Source: Rhizobiales bacterium SYSU XM002
GTDB lineage: Bacteria; Pseudomonadota; Alphaproteobacteria; Rhizobiales; Beijerinckiaceae
Direction: 5' to 3'
Assembly (NCBI GenBank): GCA_009846685.1
Contig: VWVY01000004.1
Span: 186,001 to 250,000 of the forward strand
DNA length: 64,000 nucleotides
Positions 16,877-20,906 of this stretch are shown here, one piece after another (positions within the stretch are counted from its first letter, which is position 1; every line of letters starts with the position of its first letter). A program made the translations under genes and the position numbers. The notes under the pieces were generated by a model. The model made no database searches. It was not told the origin of the DNA and saw only the letters and a program-made list of their open reading frames with translations.

Positions 16877-17164
16877 GGTTTCCCTTTCCCGGCGTCGCCG
16901 CGGAATGCGGATCGCGCGCCCGATGGGCACTGACATGGCACATCCGTGCACGGCGGCAAGAGGTAAGTATTCCCTGCGATTGACATTTGATGCATGAGAA
17001 CATAAAGTGAACATTCGCATGACTGAAAAGGGCCATCGCCGGCATCGTTTCAGCGAATGCGCTTTTCCACGACGAATCAGCCAGAATGGCTCGCAACATT
17101 GGCCGTGAGGGGCCATATCACCCGCGAACCGTTTCGTCGTTGCCGCCATGAGGAGCCGGGGCGT
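16877..17164. other. Divergent intergenic region, DUF1993 / uvrD
   Basis: A 288-nt region between divergent genes. It should hold promoters for both, but I found no convincing -35/-10 pair and no LexA box. The frame of uvrD is open through part of it to 17057 without a good start site. Confidence 0.5.
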
Positions 17165-19537
17165 TTGTCCGATCCGTTTTCGCTTGATGACTGGCGCGAA
17201 CCGCCCCGGCCAGCCGGTGGTGGCATCGCAGCGCGCGCCCGCGCCGCCGCCCAGCCTGCGACCTATCTCAGCGGCCTCAATCCCGAGCAGTTGCGCGCGG
17301 TCGAGGCTCTCGACGGCCCCGTGCTCGTGCTCGCCGGCGCCGGCACAGGCAAGACCAAAGTTCTCACGGCGCGCATCGCGCATCTGATCGCGACGGGCCG
17401 GGCGCGCCCTAACGAAATTCTTGCGATGACCTTCACCAACAAGGCTGCGCGCGAGATGAAGGAACGCATCGGTCATCTCGTCGGCTCGATCGCGGAGGGT
17501 ATGCCCTGGCTCGGCACTTTCCACTCGATCGGCACCAAGCTCCTGCGGCGCCACGCCGAGCTCGTCGATCTCAAGTCCGATTTCACGATCCTCGATACCG
17601 ACGACCAGATCCGGCTCCTCAAGCAGATCCTGCAGGCCGAGAACATCGACGAGAAGCGTTGGCCGGCGCGCGTTTTGGCGACCATTATCGACGGTTGGAA
17701 GAACCGCGCCCTGCCGCCGGCAAAGGTGCCGGCCGGCGAGGCGATCTCTTTCGCCGGGCGCGGCGGCGAACTTTACGGTATCTACCAGGAACGGCTGAAG
17801 ACGCTCAACGCGGTCGATTTCGGTGATCTTCTGGTCGAGACGATCCGACTGTTCCGCGACAACCCGGAACTCACCGCACAATATCAGGATCGGTTCCGCT
17901 ACATCCTCGTCGACGAGTATCAGGACACCAATACCGCGCAATATCTCTGGCTGCGACTGATCGCACAGGGGCGGCGTAACATCTGCTGCGTGGGCGATGA
18001 CGACCAGTCGATCTATGGCTGGCGCGGCGCCGAGGTCGACAACATCCTGCGCTTCGAGAAGGATTTCCCGGGCGCGGTGGTGATCCGCCTCGAACGCAAC
18101 TACCGCTCGACCGGGCATATTCTCGGTGCGGCTGCGAAACTCATCGAGCGCAACGAGGGCCGGCTCGGCAAGACCCTCTTCACCGAAGGCGAGATGGGCG
18201 AGCGTGTCGCCGTCGCCTGCGCCTGGGATTCCGAGGAGGAAGCCCGGCAAATCGCCGACGATATCGAAGCGCTCCAGCGAAAGGGCCATCGCCTCAACGA
18301 AATGGCGATCCTCGTCCGCGCCTCGTTCCAGATGCGCGAGTTCGAGGAACGCTTCATCACCAACGCGATTCCCTATCGCGTCATCGGCGGCCCGCGCTTT
18401 TATGAGCGCGCCGAAATCCGCGATGCGCTCGCCTACCTCAAGTGCATCGCCAACCCGGCGAGCGATCTCGCGTTCGAGCGCATCTTCAACATGCCCAAGC
18501 GCGGCCTCGGCGATGCTGTGCTGGCGACTCTCCATGCCTATGCCCGCGAGGCCAAGGTGCCGCTGATGCAGGCCGCGCGCGTGCTGATCGAGACCGAGGA
18601 ACTCAAGCCGAAGCAGCGCACCACCGTGCGCGAACTGATGGAGGCGTTCGGGCGCTGGTCGGGCCTCGTCGAGACGACGCCGCACCACGAACTCGCCGAA
18701 ACCGTGCTGGAGGAGAGCGGCTACACCGACATGTGGAAAAAGGACCGCTCGGCCGATGCTGCCGGACGCCTCGAAAACCTCAAGGAACTTGTCCGTTCGA
18801 TGGAGGAATTCGAGAACCTCGCCGGGTTCCTCGAACATGTCAGCCTCGTAATGGAAGCAGCTTCAGGCGAGACCGACGATCGCGTCTCGATCATGACGCT
18901 GCACGCCGCCAAGGGCCTCGAATTCGAAACGGTCTATCTCCCCGGCTGGGAAGAAGGCGTTTTCCCGCATCAGCGCGCGCTCGACGAGCAGGGCAAGGCG
19001 GGTCTCGAGGAAGAGCGTCGCCTCGCCTACGTCGGCCTCACGCGGGCGAAGCAGCGCGCCAAGCTGTTTTTCGCCACCAACCGGCGCATCCACGGCATGT
19101 GGAATGCGGCCATCCCCTCGCGCTTCATCGACGAACTCCCCGCCGATCATGTCGAGGTGATGGAGGGGCAAGGCACCTTCGGCGCCAACCAGCGGCAGGC
19201 CTACGGAGGCGCCTCGCGCTTCGACCAGATCCAGCCGTTTCAGGGTTCGAGCTACACGACGCCGGGCTGGCAGCGCGCGCAGGCCGCGCATTCGGGCGGC
19301 TTCCGGCCCTCCTCGGCGCCGCAGGATCCCGGCCGCCGTGGTTCACCAAAATTGATCGAAGGCCGCGTGCTCGCCTCCTCCACCGGCTCCTCATCGAAAT
19401 TTGGCAAGGGCGACCGCGTGTTTCACGTCAAGTTCGGCCCCGGCTCGGTTGCGGAAGTGGATGGCAACAAGCTCACGGTCGATTTCGACAAGGCCGGCCG
19501 GAAGATGGTGCTGGACAGCTTTGTGAGCGAGGGGTGA
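17165..19537 (+). CDS. uvrD: DNA helicase II, UvrD/PcrA family
   Basis: 3'-5' DNA helicase of nucleotide excision and mismatch repair. With the chosen start it has 790 residues. Visible superfamily 1 motifs include Walker A LAGAGTGKT at 56-64, LAMTFTNKAA, VDEYQDTN, the CCVGDDDQSIYGWRGA segment, ERNYRST and VSIMTLHAAKGLEF, then VGLTRAKQ. A C-terminal Tudor-like segment (GDRVFHVKFGPGSVAEVDGNKL) is as in PcrA/UvrD. The TTG at 17165 is chosen: AGGAG lies 9 nt upstream and the resulting N-terminus fits alphaproteobacterial relatives. The track frame continues to 17057. Confidence 0.95.
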   Translation: MSDPFSLDDWREPPRPAGGGIAARARAAAQPATYLSGLNPEQLRAVEALDGPVLVLAGAGTGKTKVLTARIAHLIATGRARPNEILAMTFTNKAAREMKERIGHLVGSIAEGMPWLGTFHSIGTKLLRRHAELVDLKSDFTILDTDDQIRLLKQILQAENIDEKRWPARVLATIIDGWKNRALPPAKVPAGEAISFAGRGGELYGIYQERLKTLNAVDFGDLLVETIRLFRDNPELTAQYQDRFRYILVDEYQDTNTAQYLWLRLIAQGRRNICCVGDDDQSIYGWRGAEVDNILRFEKDFPGAVVIRLERNYRSTGHILGAAAKLIERNEGRLGKTLFTEGEMGERVAVACAWDSEEEARQIADDIEALQRKGHRLNEMAILVRASFQMREFEERFITNAIPYRVIGGPRFYERAEIRDALAYLKCIANPASDLAFERIFNMPKRGLGDAVLATLHAYAREAKVPLMQAARVLIETEELKPKQRTTVRELMEAFGRWSGLVETTPHHELAETVLEESGYTDMWKKDRSADAAGRLENLKELVRSMEEFENLAGFLEHVSLVMEAASGETDDRVSIMTLHAAKGLEFETVYLPGWEEGVFPHQRALDEQGKAGLEEERRLAYVGLTRAKQRAKLFFATNRRIHGMWNAAIPSRFIDELPADHVEVMEGQGTFGANQRQAYGGASRFDQIQPFQGSSYTTPGWQRAQAAHSGGFRPSSAPQDPGRRGSPKLIEGRVLASSTGSSSKFGKGDRVFHVKFGPGSVAEVDGNKLTVDFDKAGRKMVLDSFVSEG

Positions 19538-19562
19538 AGAAAATTGCATCAGAAACTCAAAA

Positions 19563-19590
19563 TTGTTCGAATTTTGTTCTAAAATACATT
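19563..19590 (+). promoter_or_regulatory. SOS (LexA) box overlapping a promoter
   Basis: GTTC (19565-19568), seven bases, GTTC (19576-19579): the exact GTTC-N7-GTTC consensus of alphaproteobacterial LexA operators. It overlaps a plausible promoter, -35 TTGTTC at 19563-19568 and -10 TACATT at 19585-19590 with a 16-nt spacer, so bound LexA would block transcription of the 19680 ORF and prmA. The region is markedly AT-rich compared with the rest of the window. Confidence 0.72.
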
Positions 19591-19679
19591 GTGAGTAATG
19601 GGGATAATTCTTCGGTAGCTTCAATTGGAGAAAAACTCCTTTATTTGGATAGACGACCCCACGAATCAGGAGCGTCGTC

Positions 19680-19829
19680 GTGCCGCCAAAGCATTCTTCG
19701 AAATCCCCCGATCTCCCACCCTTTCTGCGCTTTCTCCGGCATGTAAGGCTTGGCCTTTGGGAAGTGCTGCTCTCCCTCAGCTTTCTGGTAGCTATCGCTG
19801 GAATATTCGGCTTTAAGCCTTGGCCATGA
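19680..19829 (+). CDS. Putative SOS-controlled 49-aa single-span membrane protein
   Basis: A short frame starting at GTG 19680 and encoding 49 residues. AGGAG lies exactly 7 nt upstream, and the stop overlaps the prmA start codon by 4 nt (ATGA), both hallmarks of a translated, coupled gene. The N-terminal half is polar and basic (HSSKSPDLPP, RFLRHVRLG); then comes one hydrophobic span of about 19 residues (LWEVLLSLSF followed by LVAIAGIFGF) and a short FKPWP tail, giving an N-inside topology. It lies about 85 nt downstream of the SOS box promoter. I do not recognise the family. By analogy with SidA of Caulobacter, a tiny SOS-induced membrane protein that blocks division, a division-inhibitor role is conceivable but unproven. 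Confidence 0.6.
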   Translation: MPPKHSSKSPDLPPFLRFLRHVRLGLWEVLLSLSFLVAIAGIFGFKPWP

Positions 19830-20827
19830 CCACCACCCTCGCCCGCCTTGTCACCGACGAGGCCACCGCCAAAGCCATCGCCGATCATCTCTCGGAGCTG
19901 TTCGAGCCGGATGAGCTGGCGGCCTCCGCCTTCGAGTTCCCGGAGGATGACGCGTTGCCGACCTCGGTGCCGCGCCCGCAGAAGAAGGATATCGAACGTC
20001 AGGATTCCCTCCGCCACGGCGCGATGGGCACGCTTCTGCCCGATGTCGAGGCGCCGTGGCTCTGCGAGCTTTACTTCGGCGAAGCACCTGATGAAGCCGC
20101 GATCCGCGCGATCATCGCCGATGTCGCGGGTGACGCAGCCGCCGCCGCCCTCTCCTTCGATGAGGTCGAAGCGCGGGACTGGATCGCTGCCTCGCTCGAA
20201 GGCCTGAACCCTGTCGATGCCGGGCGCTTCACCGTCCACGGCGCACATTCGCGCGACAGCCTGAAGCCCAACCGCTTCAACATCGAGATCGAGGCCGCGC
20301 TCGCCTTCGGCACCGGCCATCACGGCACGACGCGCGGCTGCCTGCTGCATCTCGATGCCGTGCTCAAGCGCCGCCGCCCGCGCGATGTCGTCGATATCGG
20401 CTCCGGCACCGGGGTGCTGGCTTTTGGCGCGGCAAAAGCGCTGAAGCAGTTCGTCTACGCGGGCGAACTCGACCCAGATTCGGTGCGCATCGCCCGCGGG
20501 AACGCTGCACTCAACGGCGTGGCGCCCTTCGTTCGGCCGGTGGTTGCCGCGGGCTTGCAGCACCCGGAGCTGCGCGCGAGCCGCACCTATGATCTCGTGT
20601 TCGCCAATATTCTCGCGCGGCCGCTCAAAGGCCTCGCGCCGGAAATCGCGCGGGCAACAGCGCCGGGTGGCGAGTTGATCCTCTCCGGCCTCCTGCGCCA
20701 CGATGTGCCGGGCGTGCTCGCGAAATACCGCGCCTTCGGCTTCCATCTCGTGTCACGGCAAGATCTTGAAGGTTGGGCGAGTCTCATTCTAAAGCGCGGA
20801 GGCGGCAAGCCGCGTCATTCGGTCTGA
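19826..20827 (+). CDS. prmA: Ribosomal protein L11 methyltransferase
   Basis: Methylates ribosomal protein L11 using S-adenosylmethionine. The 333-residue protein has the AdoMet motif DVVDIGSGTGVLAFGAAKAL, preceded by the PrmA-typical IEAALAFGTGHHGTT, and the catalytic-site segment VFANILARPL. The N-terminal substrate domain carries an unusual charged insert at about residues 40-76 (EDDALPTS through PDVEAP). The start overlaps the stop of the 49-aa ORF by 4 nt, so it may be expressed from the SOS-box promoter at least in part. A hairpin terminator follows. Confidence 0.93.
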   Translation: MTTTLARLVTDEATAKAIADHLSELFEPDELAASAFEFPEDDALPTSVPRPQKKDIERQDSLRHGAMGTLLPDVEAPWLCELYFGEAPDEAAIRAIIADVAGDAAAAALSFDEVEARDWIAASLEGLNPVDAGRFTVHGAHSRDSLKPNRFNIEIEAALAFGTGHHGTTRGCLLHLDAVLKRRRPRDVVDIGSGTGVLAFGAAKALKQFVYAGELDPDSVRIARGNAALNGVAPFVRPVVAAGLQHPELRASRTYDLVFANILARPLKGLAPEIARATAPGGELILSGLLRHDVPGVLAKYRAFGFHLVSRQDLEGWASLILKRGGGKPRHSV

Positions 20828-20844
20828 TTTGCCGGGCTCAAAAC

Positions 20845-20871
20845 GAAAAAACCCCGCCGAAGCGGGGTTCA
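20845..20871. terminator. Bidirectional terminator between prmA and small minus-strand genes
   Basis: AACCCCGC-CGAA-GCGGGGTT (20850-20869) forms an 8-bp stem. On the minus strand it is followed by a run of six T, an ideal terminator for the 20907-21267 genes; on the plus strand it follows prmA. Confidence 0.85.
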
Positions 20872-20906
20872 GTCTTGAAGCGGGGAGGAAATCCGCTTCG
20901 GTTCAA

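Follow-up and report, generated by a model that had tools for sequence, protein, structure and literature searches.

A small genus-specific gene in an exchangeable slot before prmA, preceded in one genome by a LexA-type box

A reading frame of 49 codons directly upstream of prmA is a real gene, specific to one genus, and the slot that it fills is held in sister genomes by hicAB toxin-antitoxin genes behind a matching leader. In the genome analysed here, and in no other of its genus in which prmA was located, the gene is also preceded by a box that is probably a LexA site. We tentatively read its product as a single-span peptide restricted to the genus, encoded in a slot of toxin-like character. 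On this reading its translation is gated, its gene overlaps the next one, and in this lineage it may be controlled by LexA in the style of TisB and DinQ.

Layout of the locus

Coordinates refer to the window, the whole stretch of 64,000 nucleotides that was analysed. Its genome is G000, and the comparison set comprised 17 genomes of the genus, G000 included. The features are as follows.

16998..17012, minus strand: LexA-type box that precedes the uvrD-type gene, a pattern match; the uvrD frames of G005 and G008 are also preceded by boxes
17057..19537, plus strand: uvrD/pcrA-type helicase gene, the upstream neighbour (Pfam UvrD-helicase 1.3e-91, UvrD_C 1e-67; start codon uncertain)
19565..19579, plus strand: LexA-type box GTTCGAATTTTGTTC, 100 nt upstream of the small ORF, in this genome only
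19652..19679, plus strand: predicted leader hairpin GACGAC...GTCGTC, from folds and leader comparison, containing the partly paired Shine-Dalgarno AGGAG
19680..19829, plus strand: small protein of 49 aa with a single predicted helix and a GTG start (no Pfam family at E 0.1)
19826..20827, plus strand: prmA, ribosomal protein L11 methyltransferase (Pfam PrmA 3.5e-51), its start overlapping the stop of the small ORF (ATGA)

In the window, 142 bases separate the end of the uvrD-type gene from the 49-codon ORF. The original prediction had described a GTG-started ORF of 49 codons, a Shine-Dalgarno AGGAG, an overlap of 4 nt with prmA and a GTTC-N7-GTTC box, and each was found: the ORF at 19680-19829, AGGAG at 19668-19672, spaced 7 nt from the GTG, the TGA of the ORF inside an ATGA that also holds the ATG of prmA, and the box at 19565-19579. 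A promoter overlapping the box had been proposed as well, and this was not recovered by a consensus scan, which covered sigma-70-type sites only and returned 0.

The small ORF is a conserved gene with a predicted membrane helix

Homologues of the small ORF were present in six of the 17 genus genomes (G000, G005, G006, G007, G008 and G014). In a profile search of 248 family genomes, a sample that includes the genus, no hit from another genus fell below E 0.001; the best, at E 0.0019, lay within a frame of 471 residues. A scan of the contig collection confirmed four loci from 44 pattern matches, all of them from four of the same genus genomes. The protein alignment has twelve invariant columns. 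In 14 of 15 pairs dN/dS was 0.15-0.65, with the fifteenth pair saturated at synonymous sites and others near saturation, and differences per codon position were 0.38, 0.29 and 0.57. The check on conservation thus came out in favour of the ORF, which is under purifying selection in these six genomes and changes most at third positions; it is a real gene, and a genus-specific one.

The single membrane span ascribed to the protein agrees with the predictions made here. The best 19-residue Kyte-Doolittle mean was 2.09, and AlphaFold2 gave one helix over residues 14-44, with a mean pLDDT of 91-92 over residues 21-40 (overall mean 76.5, pTM 0.38). The protein has one predicted long helix and a cationic N-terminal half, and its place is most likely the inner membrane. 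It had no family in Pfam (E 0.1) or PHROGs and no match in the PDB. An NCBIfam match at E 0.037 was taken as chance, its 13 bits being far short of the cut-off (300). Phage or plasmid origin was considered and set aside, as none of 16 viral-contig pattern matches was confirmed and no PHROGs family was hit; no plasmid DNA matching 19500-20200 was found. The small protein did not match the HicA profile (PF07927), and G000 was without any HicA match.

The slot before prmA is exchangeable

We located prmA in 16 of the 17 genus genomes (it was absent from G010, which is 78% complete), and the content of the slot before it varied. The ORF stood alone in five genomes (G000, G005, G006, G008 and G014), hicAB stood instead in seven, both were present in one and neither in three. 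Six of the seven had hicAB only (G002, G003, G009, G011, G012 and G013), and in G016 a remnant of the ORF, its last 13 codons, lay behind hicAB. The genome with both, G007, had the order ORF, hicA, hicB. Just a short gap was left in two genomes (G004 and G015), and in G001 (locus L042) an intact-looking Mrr-type restriction endonuclease gene replaced the ORF and hicAB (Pfam Mrr_cat 1.2e-28). All eight hicA genes in the slot were above the Pfam cut-off, and all eight genes that follow them matched the HicB-like antitoxin family. Across the 17 genomes there were nine HicA genes, eight of them in this slot. The G016 tail, LAFAALFGLKALA, resembles the C-terminus of the ORF to a degree reached by only 0 to 17 of 5000 shuffles in six comparisons. 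The end of uvrD was found upstream of the slot in 13 of 16 genomes, and was not seen in the stretch for G002, G014 and G016.

By the prmA tree, each of the two main clades of the genus (support 100/99 and 98/96) includes genomes with the ORF, which is therefore probably older than their split; the box occurs in one genome. Only these two clades were used, because several of the rows extend into the sequence ahead of prmA and the tree has several open forks. The hicA sequences differ, as judged by eye, and the gene orders in G007 and G016 are opposite, which suggests that hicAB entered the slot more than once.

We do not claim that the ORF is derived from the 5′ end of hicA, or that the two share ancestry past the first codons. 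In local alignments of the first 90 nt, controlled by 100 gene-start-like ORFs from the window, four of the 42 ORF-hicA pairs beat all 100 controls (G006 with G002, G003 and G013; G007 with G002), two more were equalled by just 3 of 100, and the remainder were for the most part ordinary. Ungapped identity over the first 45 nt exceeded the control mean in most pairs, and G006 (ORF) and G003 (hicA) have the leader and the first 13 coding bases in common.

Outside the genus, a brief look at the context of prmA at 14 loci showed a short LTRA motif in two of them (L058, L060) and, in L056, a uvrD C-terminus recognised by its motif.

A common leader hairpin is predicted to cover part of the Shine-Dalgarno

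In occupied slots a short leader precedes the ORF or hicA and ends at its start codon. The exact core of this leader, GAATCAGGAGCGTC, was counted a single time in each of six of the 17 genomes, always in the slot before prmA (reversed control, 0), and the other leaders have variants of it. Folded alone, 12 of 13 leaders were predicted to form a hairpin, with the 3′ arm between the Shine-Dalgarno and the start and the Shine-Dalgarno partly paired. The Shine-Dalgarno (AGGAG, 7 nt) had been called ideal, but it may not be freely exposed, since the predicted hairpin pairs part of it.

Hairpin z-scores across the 12 leaders ranged from −1.06 to −4.3; the exception, G013, formed no hairpin (z 0.43). 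At most 5% of shuffles were as stable in nine of the 13 leaders and more than 5% in the other four, with 13% for G011 and G012; the leader of the window's genome (z −1.55, 7.7% of shuffles equally stable) is not significant alone. The five outer stem pairs formed in all 12 hairpins, each with two or three pair types, although the arms were entered as the individual folds placed them, a choice biased towards pairing. The clearest comparison is that of G006 (ORF) with G003 (hicA), which agree at 41 of their first 45 bases; of the four that differ, two together turn a G-C stem pair into an A-U pair.

Further candidate structures lie ahead of the leader hairpin. A second stem (GGAG...CTCC region) was predicted in the 5′ untranslated region at 19590-19650, and a second inverted repeat, TTGATTGC...GCAATCAA, was noted by eye in G008 (L037) and in shorter form in G012 (L041). 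An Rfam search over 19500-20900 gave three matches, all below their gathering scores and all downstream of prmA.

The ORF overlaps the start of the next gene

In all six genomes that carry the ORF, its stop overlaps with the start of whichever gene follows. Four have the ATGA overlap with prmA (G000, G005, G008 and G014), in G006 the ORF overlaps a GTG start of prmA by 13 nt, and in G007 the next gene is hicA and the overlap is TGATG. A strong Shine-Dalgarno before prmA was missing in the four ORF-before-prmA genomes tested. We rejected this as proof of coupling, because one was missing in 12 of 15 tested genomes whether or not the ORF was present (G006 and G010 were outside the test).

The box fits the organism's own LexA-type motif

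Within the window the loose pattern GTTCN7GTTC was at chance level (3 occurrences v 1.94 expected; at least 3 in 24 of 100 shuffles). Over the whole genome it occurred 126 times, v 66 for the reversed pattern. An AT-rich form, GTTCNNNYTWTGTTC, had nine sites in this genome v one for the reversed-pattern control. That form was picked after the list of loose-pattern sites had been viewed, which makes the figure for this genome partly circular. The other 16 genus genomes are the fairer check; summed over these, there were 96 sites v 18 for the reversed control. The nine sites precede uvrA, a dnaE-like PHP-domain gene, recA, rmuC (with def on the opposite side), a radical-SAM gene, uvrD, the small ORF before prmA and two ORFs without a Pfam match. 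The box near the start of lexA, GTTCGGCAAGTGTTC, falls outside the AT-rich pattern.

We scored GTTCGAATTTTGTTC with a matrix built from 25 listed sites (24 distinct), from which it was left out. It reached 25.3 bits, and the listed sites themselves span 21.8-28.6. In dinucleotide shuffles of the gap (128 bases, 19538-19665; n = 3000), four reached 21.8 bits and one reached 25.3. The distance from box to start codon, 100 nt, compares with 13-158 nt for other measured sites. The proposed LexA-type site before the small ORF thus matches the motif of its own organism (25.3 bits; nine sites v one control), and GTTCGAATTTTGTTC is probably a LexA site.

Its conservation in relatives, which the original prediction offered for checking, was not found: none of the other 15 genus genomes with prmA had a comparable box within 1.5 kb upstream of the gene. 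The best score elsewhere was 12.4 bits (G016), attained by 95 of 3000 shuffles of the gap, and the remaining genomes had at most 7.7 bits. In G002 and G016 the 1.5 kb scanned does not extend to any recognised uvrD end, so a box farther upstream is possible there; in G014 about 4.4 kb were scanned and no box was found. The uvrD frames of G005 and G008 do have full-strength boxes in front, as in the window's genome. SOS control of the small ORF is consistent with the motif in this genome. It is not a family-wide trait, since the other 15 genomes show no comparable box in the 1.5 kb upstream of prmA. A link between DNA damage and PrmA is possible for this genome only.

A toxin-like peptide and its rivals

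On the tentative reading given at the outset, the ORF would be the first cistron of an exchangeable slot preceding prmA, and the leader hairpin, by pairing part of the Shine-Dalgarno, would probably keep translation low in a way that can be opened. The slot may be a site for dosage-sensitive, toxin-like products, because a matching leader precedes the gene of the HicA mRNA-interferase toxin in sister genomes. DNA damage should turn the small ORF on in this lineage, since a LexA-type box stands ahead of it; the released peptide would then have its effect at the inner membrane, slowing growth in the manner of TisB and DinQ of E. coli, and coupling would bring some ribosomes onto prmA. The argument for toxicity draws only on the slot and on the peptide's shape. 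In the five ORF-only genomes we saw no antitoxin partner; for antisense RNA, Rfam was searched over 19500-20900 of the window. A more far-reaching version is rather unlikely in our estimation: that the slot, marked by one hairpin gating the Shine-Dalgarno, swaps toxin genes by recombination, HicA ribonucleases for an unrelated membrane toxin, and has been newly wired to LexA in one species, making a growth inhibitor and a ribosomal-protein methyltransferase jointly responsive to damage.

The closest parallels are TisB (PMC7708055) and DinQ (PMC3567139) of E. coli, SOS-induced single-span membrane toxins with the ribosome-binding site in RNA structure. Judged by their descriptions, the small ORF is similar in its small hydrophobic peptide and its SOS-type promoter element. 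A structured ribosome-binding site may be a further likeness, the hairpin being predicted for 12 of 13 leaders, though with a z of −1.55 for the one in this genome. Unlike them, it overlaps prmA, it shares its leader with hicA genes in sister genomes, and no antisense RNA was found for it (Rfam, 19500-20900 only). It is like the type II system HicAB in its slot before prmA and in the matching hairpin leader of sister genomes, and differs in having no HicA profile match and a predicted membrane helix. The higBA-higX locus of Caulobacter is described as an SOS-induced toxin-antitoxin module beside a membrane-associated protein, with the module in few genomes and HigX a transcription factor (PMC13384398). 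By that description it offers a precedent for a single locus that combines SOS control with a toxin-antitoxin module and a membrane protein; here, by contrast, the overlap with prmA is made by a 49-aa peptide, and the genome that has the SOS box lacks the module. Among the matches listed, titles and abstract openings describe no link between prmA and the SOS response, and none between hicA and LexA in alphaproteobacteria, which is no proof that either is absent from print.

An unlikely but by no means negligible alternative is that hairpin and ORF act mainly as a regulatory leader cistron, metering the next gene by coupling (prmA in five genomes, hicA in G007), so that the peptide matters less and LexA tunes prmA here. 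The six stop-start overlaps out of six (ATGA in four, TGATG in G007, 13 nt in G006) speak for it, as does the lack of a strong Shine-Dalgarno before prmA in the four genomes tested. However, such a Shine-Dalgarno is also lacking where no ORF precedes prmA (12 of 15 genomes tested, with and without the ORF, lack one), and the peptide itself is under purifying selection, with the third-position bias noted above. We give a similarly low weight to the reading that the box is accidental, only the conserved ORF and leader are real and the gene is not under SOS control. The box is missing from the other 15 genus genomes with prmA, the AT-rich form was chosen after the fact, and the reversed control implies a background of about 18% (19 v 105 sites over 17 genomes). 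Against accident, just 4 of 3000 gap shuffles reach 21.8 bits and the 100 nt to the start codon lie inside the range of other measured sites.

The peptide might also have been a third member of the toxin-antitoxin operon that survived alone after loss of hicAB, which we regard as improbable. The leader-ORF-hicA-hicB order of G007 with its TGATG overlap would fit this, as would the leader common to hicAB and the ORF, but the order in G016 is opposite, with the ORF tail behind hicB, and six other genomes have hicAB without the ORF. The least probable of the alternatives, to our mind very doubtful, is a division inhibitor like SidA of Caulobacter, which would bind late divisome proteins such as FtsW and delay septation after DNA damage. 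SidA, 29 aa long, is described as an inner-membrane protein and an interaction partner of FtsW (PMC4211646). The parallel is that here, too, an alphaproteobacterium has a LexA-type box with a small protein for which one helix and one membrane span are predicted; the differences are a length of 49 aa and a box that is not conserved in the small-protein family, being absent from five of the six genomes with the ORF. SidA is the weaker parallel because nothing here connects the small protein to division, and FtsW or FtsI as its target, suggested in the original prediction, is unsupported. We favour the toxin-like or regulatory reading over it because this slot is filled by HicA toxin genes in sister genomes, where the hairpin leader matches too.

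If the toxin-like reading is true, an orphan peptide replaces the toxin of a toxin-antitoxin system behind a common translational switch, and fresh SOS wiring has been caught in one species (the box is known from one strain). With 16 slots that have the ORF, lack it, mix it with hicAB or retain a remnant, the origin of SOS-controlled small membrane proteins would become testable by comparison.

Other sites of the motif

The two ORFs without a Pfam match, L105:940-1284 (G000:C8) and L107:1262-1696 (G000:C13), begin 27 and 18 nt after AT-rich LexA-type boxes and are candidates for new SOS genes. The divergent genes rmuC and def in L103 (G000:C3) have a LexA-type box between them, near 1883, through which peptide deformylase (def) may share SOS control.
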